Below are positions 27,377-56,087 of a DNA stretch of 64,000 nucleotides, in pieces. Source of the stretch: a virus. A program made the translations under genes and the position numbers. The notes under the pieces are model-generated. The model made no database searches, was not told the DNA's origin, and worked only from the letters and a program-made list of their open reading frames with translations. Each line of letters begins with the position of its first letter. Position 1 is the stretch's first letter. Location of the stretch: positions 1-64,000 of the IMG/VR virus record IMGVR_UViG_3300049043_000164; one strand, 5' to 3'.

Positions 27377-27841
27377 TCAAATATCTTCCTGCACCCAGGG
27401 GGTAATACCGATCATCACCCTGAAAAGGCTGTATTGACTAAAGGTGTTATAGAGATCCGATTGAGAAGACGTTACATGTCCTACAAACGGATAAAAAACT
27501 TCTTGTTGATTATTAATTAAGAAAGTTTCAGGTACGCTATCAGCCTGGAAAATAGAGCGTCCCTCAATTGGAATTAAATTCAAGTCATAACAAGAAATCT
27601 GTACATATTTAGAACGATCACCATCTTTGGTCAAAATAATCCAGGCTGGAGAAGTGATTTCAACAGAAAACCAATGATTATATGAGCCACCTCCAAAACC
27701 GTTTTCTTGTACTTGATATGTTGCTTGTAATGTTCCTTGTAAATAACGCAAAGAAGTTTCGCTAAAAGTACCTAGCAAAAGAGGATTGTTTACAGTTCTT
27801 TGACGTTGAGAAACAGAAGAGCGAGGGCTGACTCGTGCCAT
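27377..27841 (-). CDS. Hypothetical virion-like protein
   Basis: 154 aa: ARVSPRSSVSQRQRTVNNPL, LLGTFSETSLRYLQGTLQAT, then a beta-rich domain SYNHWFSVEITSPAWIILTK and FSQYSLFRVMIGITPWVQED. The C-terminal part resembles small carbohydrate-binding or jelly-roll folds in style only. Function unknown. Confidence 0.5.
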   Translation of the reverse strand: MARVSPRSSVSQRQRTVNNPLLLGTFSETSLRYLQGTLQATYQVQENGFGGGSYNHWFSVEITSPAWIILTKDGDRSKYVQISCYDLNLIPIEGRSIFQADSVPETFLINNQQEVFYPFVGHVTSSQSDLYNTFSQYSLFRVMIGITPWVQEDI

Positions 27842-27865
27842 TTATCTATCTACTTTTTTTCTATT

Positions 27866-28504
27866 TTACTCCTCAACTTCTTTTAGTTTTTTATTGTGTT
27901 GTGGATTAGTTATAAGCATTTTAAATTGAGCAGACACTGGCTCGTCAGTTGGTAAATTTAAACGGTCTCGATTGCCAGCCAGCATTAATTTCTCATATTG
28001 AAACTCAGTTGCGAATGGTGAGATTGACTTAGGTGGATTGGCTTGGTTCCAAGCAGACTTCATATGAAGTGGATTGAAGCACTTGGGGTTCTTACACGTT
28101 CTTGTCACCCATGTGCTACCCACGTCCCCCCAGGCACACTGGTAGATCAACTTGTGAACGTTGACGTACTCCGTGAAGCGTTCAGTGTACAGGGATCTAT
28201 AGGACGGAAAGGTAATCCTACTCTTTTTCCCCTCGACCTCCCAGCACTTATCAAATGAACCCTGGGGGATACTCCTCCAGAGAGTCTCGTACCTGATCTT
28301 GTAGTCGCGATGTAGGTAGTTGACATCAAAACCGCAAATGTTGGTTTGGATTTTAAGAGCACCGTGATAGCACCAGTGCTTTTTTGTATCACGGATTACA
28401 TGACCATGGGCACACGGGAACCCTCGATAGTAGTTCAAACGATCTAGTTGCTCAATGTCCAGCTCATTAATGTTTGGGACGTAACGAAATAAGAGTTTCA
28501 ACAT
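27866..28504 (-). CDS. Zinc-binding HNH endonuclease
   Basis: About 212 aa. The N-terminus has PCAHGHVIRDTKKHWCYHGA; the C-terminal block VHKLIYQCAWGDVGSTWVTR, TCKNPKCFNPLHMKSAW is the zinc-binding homing-endonuclease signature (HrlvY...C.NP.CvNP.HL). Start chosen at ATG 28504 rather than an upstream TTG. Free-standing between virion-like genes and a glycosyltransferase. Confidence 0.75.
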   Translation of the reverse strand: MLKLLFRYVPNINELDIEQLDRLNYYRGFPCAHGHVIRDTKKHWCYHGALKIQTNICGFDVNYLHRDYKIRYETLWRSIPQGSFDKCWEVEGKKSRITFPSYRSLYTERFTEYVNVHKLIYQCAWGDVGSTWVTRTCKNPKCFNPLHMKSAWNQANPPKSISPFATEFQYEKLMLAGNRDRLNLPTDEPVSAQFKMLITNPQHNKKLKEVEE

Positions 28505-40429: not shown

Positions 40430-40460
40430 TTCCTGGCCTGAGCAACCAGGAATTTTTATT
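40430..40460 (+). terminator. Rho-independent terminator
   Basis: TTCCTGG pairs with CCAGGAA over a 9-nt loop and is followed by TTTTTATT. It ends the operon of basic proteins. Confidence 0.85.
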
Positions 40461-40474
40461 GCTAAAATAATTTT

Positions 40475-40689
40475 GATAGAGAATCAGACCCCTGTGCGCG
40501 TCATGCCCTAGAGCATGGAAGGCGACAGACCTGATTCTTTATCTATCCACAGATGCCATTTAATTCTTTCCATAGTCTGTGGTGGTAAAAAGGGTAAAGA
40601 ATCTATTACAGTCTGAACTGGGCATTTGCTTTAATGTAGGACTGTTCAAACACCCCCTAAGCCTCTCAACGATGCTCAAACCTGGGGGT
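40475..40689 (+). ncRNA. Structured noncoding RNA region
   Basis: No plausible ORF. A 13-bp stem (40475-40487 with 40531-40543, one G-U pair) encloses CTGT/ACAG, CGC/GCG and CATGC/GCATG, forming a long rod. Then come 7-bp CCACAGA/TCTGTGG (40547-40582), 6-bp ACAGTC/GACTGT (40608-40645) and ACCCCC/GGGGGT (40652-40689) hairpins. It lies between a terminator and a tRNA-like fold. Large ornate phage RNAs next to tRNAs (GOLLD, ROOL) are a precedent, but no match is claimed. Confidence 0.5.
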
Positions 40690-40693
40690 CACT

Positions 40694-40795
40694 CGTCTGT
40701 TACGAACTAATAGGATAAGGCGGCTTCCAGCCTGGACATTGGACGCAATGTTTTCAGAGGGCAAAGCGATATGGGTTCAAGTCCCATACAGACGG
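40694..40795 (+). ncRNA. tRNA-like structure, atypical and long
   Basis: A perfect 7-bp acceptor stem (CGTCTGT with ACAGACG) and a perfect T arm (ATGGG TTCAAGT CCCAT) are in tRNA register, followed by one discriminator base. The centre is about 15 nt longer than even class II tRNAs: no proper D arm is seen, AGGC/GCCT could close a loop containing TTCC, and ACATTG/CAATGT forms an extra hairpin. It may be a divergent tRNA, a pseudo-tRNA or the 3' domain of the upstream RNA. Confidence 0.5.
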
Positions 40796-40811: not shown

Positions 40812-41351
40812 ATGGCAAATATATTTGTTATTGCTGATACCCACTGGGGACACGCAAAAAGTTTGACATTTGTTACATCAGAAGGAGAGCGGTTACGTCC
40901 ATTTGATTCAGTAGAAGAAATGGATGAACTCATGGTTACCAACTGGAATAACACTGTTGGAAAGCATGACACTATCTATCACTTAGGCGATGTCGTTATC
41001 CCTAGACCAAGTCTTAAAGTACTCAGTCGTCTTAACGGCAGAAAGATTTTGATCCGTGGTAATCACGACCAAGGACAACTCAAAGACTTCTCTCAATATT
41101 TTGAAGATGTACGCGGAGCTTTTTTCTTTAGGCCAGGTTCAGACTTTCTTGGCGGGCTGATCTTTACACATATTCCAGTACACCCCTCTTGCCTCTCTGG
41201 CCACTACCGAGGCAATGTTCACGGCCATATCCATTGCAATCTTGTCATGGATAAAGATGAACCTGACAAAAAATATTTCAACGCATGTGTAGAACGCAAC
41301 AACTTTACTCCTGTGTCTATTGACACAATCAAACAATATTTTAGTAATTAA
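40812..41351 (+). CDS. Metallophosphoesterase
   Basis: 179 aa, intact. IFVIADTHWGHAKSLTFV (D.H motif), TIYHLGDVVIP (GD), ILIRGNHDQGQL (GNHD), GLIFTHIPVHPSC and GNVHGHIHCNL (GH.H). All metal ligands of the calcineurin-like fold are present. Substrate unknown; phage relatives are often called phosphatases or 2',3'-cyclic phosphodiesterases. Confidence 0.9.
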   Translation: MANIFVIADTHWGHAKSLTFVTSEGERLRPFDSVEEMDELMVTNWNNTVGKHDTIYHLGDVVIPRPSLKVLSRLNGRKILIRGNHDQGQLKDFSQYFEDVRGAFFFRPGSDFLGGLIFTHIPVHPSCLSGHYRGNVHGHIHCNLVMDKDEPDKKYFNACVERNNFTPVSIDTIKQYFSN

Positions 41352-55973: not shown

Positions 55974-56004
55974 GATAGTTAAGTTAATTTAAATGTGTAT
56001 TTGG

Positions 56005-56087
56005 TAGAGATGGTGGGACTCGAACCCACACGACCAAAGGTCAACGCATTTTAAGTGCGTAGCGGCTACCGATTACGCCACATCTCC
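56005..56087 (-). tRNA. tRNA-Leu (anticodon UAA)
   Basis: 83 nt. Acceptor GGAGATG with CATCTCT, anticodon arm ACGCA CTTAAAA TGCGT giving UAA, a variable arm (TTGACCTTTGGTCG) and T arm GTGGG TTCGAGT CCCAC. A class II tRNA as expected for leucine. It decodes UUA, a codon common in this AT-rich genome. CCA is not encoded. Confidence 0.95.

Follow-up and report, generated by a model that had tools for sequence, protein, structure and literature searches.

The abiF RNA (Rfam RF03085) is the antitoxin partner of the HEPN RNase AbiF, a toxin of the Abi_2 family, with which it forms a type III toxin-antitoxin system. In C. difficile, the abiF-motif RNA RCd22 neutralises AbiF by direct binding, in trans as well as in cis, an action that needs the stem of its abiF motifs (PMC12373285); it has been proposed that the Cas13 nucleases descend from the toxin itself (reviewed in PMC12737573). 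On the phage side, PhiTE escapes the ToxIN system by means of a pseudo-antitoxin RNA (PMC3475682), and an abiF RNA of cyanophage S-CREM1 has been published, in the section devoted to it, as an Rfam hit together with a conserved motif (PMC9964418).

Here we describe an abiF RNA that lies, without its toxin, in an array of small RNAs of a cyanobacterial virus. The window analysed is a stretch of 64,000 nucleotides (positions 1 to 64,000 of the 65,069-base record IMGVR_UViG_3300049043_000164), and its locus at 40475-40794 is noncoding and structured. The open reading frames found in 40475-40795 encode 32-43 amino acids each, overlap one another and are not credible, in agreement with the sequence-only reading, which had seen no credible frame here, and the homologous phages hold RNA modules at this place instead of coding DNA. 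The fold of the locus gains only moderately on shuffled sequences (z -2.0; 2/100 shuffles), and the decisive support for its structure is comparative, not folding by itself: covariation was found in the tRNA-like element at its 3' end, in the abiF stem and in one of the upstream modules. The same reading had brought up kinship with the giant RNAs GOLLD and ROOL, an idea that finds no support, as cmscan returned no such Rfam match, and none to a tRNA, even at E<=5; tmRNA and an ordinary tRNA were likewise rejected, neither ARAGORN nor Rfam giving a match to them at the locus, and the Rfam matches to SNORA61 and MIR5038 are weak and far under the cut-off. An ordinary tRNA-Leu(TAA) is present elsewhere in the window, at 56002-56087 on the minus strand. 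What had been overlooked is the abiF antitoxin RNA itself and the modular, exchangeable make-up of the locus, which consists of distinct small RNA modules, lined up and exchanged among phages, and is not a single large RNA.

The abiF RNA lies on the plus strand at 40653-40689, where it scores 55.7 bits with RF03085 (cut-off 37; E 1.1e-7). All 22 bases of the core AAGCCUCUCAACGAUGCUCAAA agree with the consensus; the stem deviates from it, and in the phage copies linked to a tRNA-like element this stem covaries (19 double-change cells; 0/500 shuffles). A single abiF RNA is present in the record, and no Abi_2 toxin gene was found when its entire 65,069 bases were searched, so that it carries the antitoxin RNA only and not an AbiF type III toxin-antitoxin system; by its sequence, the element classes as an orphan antitoxin RNA of AbiF.

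The abiF hairpin ends 4 nt ahead of the tRNA-like element (TLE), from which it is separated by a CACT spacer (40690-40693, plus strand) whose length is kept across phages. The TLE itself (40694-40794, plus strand) is 101 nt long and consists of an acceptor, a minimal D-like arm, an extended central arm of stacked helices that carries a GACG tetraloop, and a T arm. The perfect acceptor and T arm described from the sequence were found again, with 7/7 and 5/5 pairs, respectively, as was the centre unlike that of a tRNA, which proves to be one long arm plus a minimal D-like arm. Neither ARAGORN nor RF00005 matches the element as a tRNA, and it lacks a 7-nt anticodon loop and therefore should not decode. 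RNase P reads the acceptor and T arm of its substrates, and the paired acceptor and T arm, their covariation and the fixed spacing together make the TLE a predicted RNase P substrate, with a cut expected before 40694; the earlier suggestion that the tRNA-like part serves in processing or maturation is thus one that we share, as a proposal.

Long TLEs related to that of the window occur in S-EIVl and in the loci L358, L386, L393, L394, L399, L403 and L404. A first search with the pattern CGAACTAANNGGATAAGGCGG found nothing, because most relatives miss one base, and a gapped pattern then recovered them. In the consensus of seven sequences, 13 pairs show compensatory changes (covariation 0/500 shuffles), and the long TLE is therefore under selection; a covariance model built without the window sequence recovers the window TLE at 94.9 bits (E 4e-19), and the element represents a new family. 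Weaker matches to the model in L408 and L063, the latter with the similar stretch CGAGCTAACTGGACAAGACGG, suggest that the long type arose from a TLE with a D arm. Among other TLEs, those of L018, L030, L037, L044, L069 and L076 have an anticodon-arm loop that ends in ATA, is closed by C-G and often lacks U33.

Scanning viral contigs with the 22-base abiF core gave 109 loci, in which the core is invariant because it was itself the query, and by blastn abiF RNA or a close relative of it is also present in S-SZBM1, S-CREM1, S-SRM01 and Redno2, all of them isolates. Among 80 nonredundant viral loci, a detector that requires an acceptor and a T arm only finds a TLE starting 12-17 nt past the core in 31, versus 1 of 99 bacterial loci and a background of 0.76% at randomly chosen positions (binomial p about 2e-44, with the caveat that related phages are not fully independent). 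The count of 31 is conservative, since a further set of loci (L023, L024, L027, L034, L044 and L103) show a visible TLE that misses the strict rule. The type of TLE behind abiF varies among normal tRNA, D-less, minimal and long forms: the neighbour is a recognisable tRNA in S-SZBM1, S-CREM1, S-SRM01 and about half of the loci, ARAGORN does not accept 16 of the 31 as tRNAs, and in L036, L043 and L071 the TLE is reduced to an acceptor, a T arm and one small hairpin, with the acceptor and T arm of such minimal forms still perfect or near-perfect. The abiF RNA also varies, with a hairpin of ~45 nt inserted in its loop, still before a TLE, in L001 (about 2840-2930), L358, L403 and L408, the variants of L358 and L403 falling under the Rfam cut-off. 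A T-run follows the abiF stem directly, and so forms a terminator with it, in 95 of 99 bacterial loci versus 2 of the 31 viral loci with a TLE. In these phage loci a tRNA mimic has thus taken over from the terminator as the 3' end device; this exchange and the fixed coupling are the grounds on which we propose processing by RNase P.

The toxin is distributed differently. By an HMM that was built up from a single phage toxin, an Abi_2 reading frame adjoins abiF in at least 53 of 94 bacterial loci versus 2 of 95 viral loci. None of the 50 records in the TLE-rich set yielded Abi_2, compared with 2 of 50 other records, and as many viral records are contig fragments, its absence there is weak evidence; in the complete isolates S-EIVl, S-SZBM1, S-CREM1, S-SRM01 and Redno2, a search for Abi_2 found none. 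In three Bacteroides loci (L174, L191 and L218), the abiF RNA lies, by eye, directly 5' of a RhuM-like gene and not of Abi_2, and such a gene is a possible other partner of the RNA. A DNA region of lactococcal phage sk1 reportedly shields phage 712 against AbiF (Rince 2000, as cited in PMC12737573 and PMC6105707); as an abiF carrier, sk1 was rejected, its best core match having 7 mismatches and its 3' noncoding region containing no abiF RNA. The noncoding stretch after the sk1 middle genes (27380-28033) holds one tRNA and further tRNA-like elements.

Downstream of the TLE, the window encodes a calcineurin-like metallophosphoesterase (40812-41351, plus strand), a gene that recurs after abiF-TLE arrays: it was seen in 16 of the 31 TLE loci versus 4 of 49 others, all four of which have a visible TLE (L011, L018, L029, L033, L037, L043, L045, L062, L066, L071, L076 and L097 are among the loci concerned). 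Its presence may reflect RNA-end processing or mere shared synteny.

Upstream, a terminator-like hairpin with a T tract closes the preceding gene (40430-40460, plus strand; stem 40430-40452, seen on the palindromic minus strand), followed by an extended -10 box, TGCTAAAAT, at 40460-40468 on the plus strand, from which the RNA operon is predicted to start near 40475. Both had been anticipated from the sequence, the box as TAAAAT-like, and they lend support to the earlier idea of a structured noncoding transcript of its own, initiation at this promoter being predicted. A sigma-70 -35 match upstream of TGCTAAAAT was looked for and not found. The arrangement recurs in S-EIV1-like phages, where a gene for a Lys-rich protein is followed by the terminator and then by the extended -10 box TGNTANNN: the hairpin is at the same place in L001, L012, L358, L399 and L403, and TGNTANNN(T/C) is kept at the same place in S-EIVl, L012, L358, L403 and L399. 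It is solely from this S-EIV1-like kinship that we infer the host of the window phage.

Between this promoter and abiF lie three modules, all on the plus strand, which we call E1 to E3. E1 (40475-40543) is a rod-like hairpin with a conserved GTGCGCG...AAGGCGAC, whose 13-bp stem, noticed at the outset, is predicted at 40475-40487/40531-40543; it has homologues in L012, L358 and L403 in which the outer and inner stems are changed, and among the matches listed in a pattern scan of viral contigs, most are due to chance. Relatives of E1 carry a similar CTAGGC-NGATA-GCCTAG arm, as if mimicking an anticodon arm. E2 (40547-40603) is an H-type pseudoknot by its pairing, with helices S1 (CCACAGA/TCTGTGG) and S2 (ATTCTTT/AAAGAAT) that both form in 10/10 unique sequences, with several different second stems; pair counts in the four members of equal length show covariation above all shuffles (0/500). 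It is present in single copy in the phage arrays read, and records that bear it usually also hold an abiF RNA. E3 (40608-40647) is a hairpin with a conserved GTCTGAACT-GGCA, found in about 14 loci, where it is 100% paired with one compensated pair, and it often abuts a TLE itself. The three further hairpins that had been proposed after the rod-like stem are present as elements, with the corrections that the one next to the rod, the second hairpin of the locus, is a pseudoknot and the one just before the tRNA-like part is the abiF RNA.

In related phages the order and content of the array change. The window has E1-E2-E3-abiF-long TLE; L358 has E1-E2-E3 and further modules, an abiF variant with an inserted hairpin and a long TLE; L403 has E1, E3 and others, an abiF variant and a long TLE; L012 has E1 and others, abiF and a TLE of normal size; and S-EIVl has a different first module, an abiF variant, a normal-size TLE and a long TLE. 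L393, L394, L399 and L404 have the long TLE alone, directly behind the promoter and without abiF, so that the TLE is either functional by itself or a relic. Related phages thus swap modules while keeping a single extended -10 promoter in front of them. Across 16 array loci, Rfam recognises only tRNA, abiF, wcaG, manA, tRNA-Sec (one, at threshold) and a glutamine-II riboswitch, and E1-E3 are thus undescribed in Rfam. Other recurring modules 5' of abiF, also without an Rfam match, are GGGCAAGCCTCTG...CACGCTTGCTCC, AAGTCCTG..CAGGCCAGG.. and CTGCTCTGTCGG.., in L011, L033, L045, L066, L076, L105 and L062.

On the host side, AbiF-type proteins are encoded, as far as seen in cyanobacteria on plasmids only, by pAQ3 of Picosynechococcus PCC 7002 and pSYLA of Synechocystis PCC 6714, and cyanobacteria therefore carry the target family. 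Two abiF-like RNAs lie upstream of the pAQ3 toxin (27 and 25 bits, under the Rfam cut-off) and differ from the phage core, and a similar-looking hairpin is present by eye in pSYLA.

Taken together, we consider it probable that the locus works as an RNA decoy operon against AbiF and that RNase P defines its 3' end by cutting at a tRNA mimic. The extended -10 promoter would start an operon that makes the orphan abiF antitoxin RNA along with other small structured RNAs; the 3' end of the abiF RNA would be made by the TLE, and not by a terminator as in the bacterial abiF toxin-antitoxin loci, which RNase P would cleave 5' of the TLE and RNase Z or an equivalent 3' of it; and the freed abiF RNA would bind and block the host AbiF RNase in trans, so that abortive infection fails. 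Against it speak the stripped arrays in which the long TLE stands behind the promoter without abiF, the low scores and differing core of the abiF-like RNAs on pAQ3, and the occurrence of orphan abiF RNAs in bacteria too. A broader version, which is possible but which we hold with distinctly less assurance, has the array as an exchangeable multivalent anti-defence cassette, in which several RNA antitoxin mimics share one promoter and one RNase P-cut tRNA-mimic 3' end, and the abiF RNA, the pseudoknot RNA and the others would each aim at a different RNA-controlled host toxin.

The stripped arrays also keep alive the main rival, in which the TLE is the functional product, a tRNA decoy or mimic directed perhaps at an anticodon nuclease, at an enzyme that modifies or charges tRNAs, or even at RNase P, with abiF merely a neighbour. 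Conservation of the D-like arm and of the central loop sequence beyond what processing alone needs fits such a role, but the TLE type varies freely behind the same abiF RNA at a fixed spacing, and we judge this rival rather unlikely. More doubtful still is capture of abiF in an ordinary phage tRNA cluster, whose tRNAs translate and whose tRNA-like members are decaying: the recognisable tRNA neighbours would be as expected, but the 13 compensated pairs of the long TLE, the retained acceptor and T arm of minimal TLEs, the spacing of 12-17 nt past the core and the loss of the terminator all argue against it. That the abiF RNA instead regulates a phage process, as a riboregulator or addiction remnant not aimed at host AbiF, is improbable, given that direct AbiF binding is the known action of abiF RNA (PMC12373285) and that phage loci of diverse kinds retain the core and show compensation in the stem, even though orphan abiF RNAs are also found in bacterial loci with no detected Abi_2, some of them ahead of RhuM-like genes.

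In dozens of phage genomes the AbiF antidote RNA appears to be present while the toxin is missing. AbiF would then often be the target of RNA decoys from viruses, which suggests that viruses disarm host suicide defences through RNA decoys trimmed by the host's own tRNA machinery. The neighbouring conserved RNAs would be candidate antidotes to toxins yet to be found, so that the arrays might serve as an inventory of the host defences that are under RNA control, and minimal TLEs would be handy natural RNase P tags.

Among described phage RNAs, GOLLD and ROOL are noncoding RNAs found near tRNAs, whereas the present locus, unlike these giant RNAs, measures 320 nt, is modular and has no match to them in Rfam at E<=5. 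The tRNA cluster of phage T4 likewise yields small stable RNAs, which are co-transcribed with the phage tRNAs. We know of no tRNA-like 3' element in the pseudo-ToxI of PhiTE. With the abiF RNA of RF03085 and RCd22 (PMC12373285), the window shares the 37-nt hairpin with its conserved core intact; it differs from the abiF/AbiF type III systems in lacking the toxin, in having a TLE in place of the terminator on the 3' side and in setting abiF in an array with other RNA modules. E2 shares the H-type pseudoknot with the type III ToxI-like antitoxins, whose further marks are ToxN binding and a tandem repeat array ahead of a ToxN-family gene, and is not assigned to the ToxI-like group. The abiF RNA of S-CREM1 (PMC9964418) is likewise an orphan in a cyanophage and lies, by our measurement, 4 nt before a tRNA-Gly; the section on abiF in that report describes neither the tRNA spacing nor a mechanism, non-tRNA TLEs or array modules. 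If the phage TLE is cut as predicted, it would offer a bacterial-virus parallel to the 3' end of MALAT1, which with its mascRNA, like NEAT1 with menRNA, has the 3' end of a noncoding RNA made by RNase P and RNase Z at a tRNA-like element, although those RNAs are mammalian and long, carry a triple helix and have no homology to the phage locus (PMC12941219). Closest in presumed action is the pseudo-ToxI of PhiTE (PMC3475682), which involves another toxin family and another RNA than abiF: there a phage encodes an RNA that imitates a type III antitoxin and thereby overcomes abortive infection, as the abiF RNA would do here.
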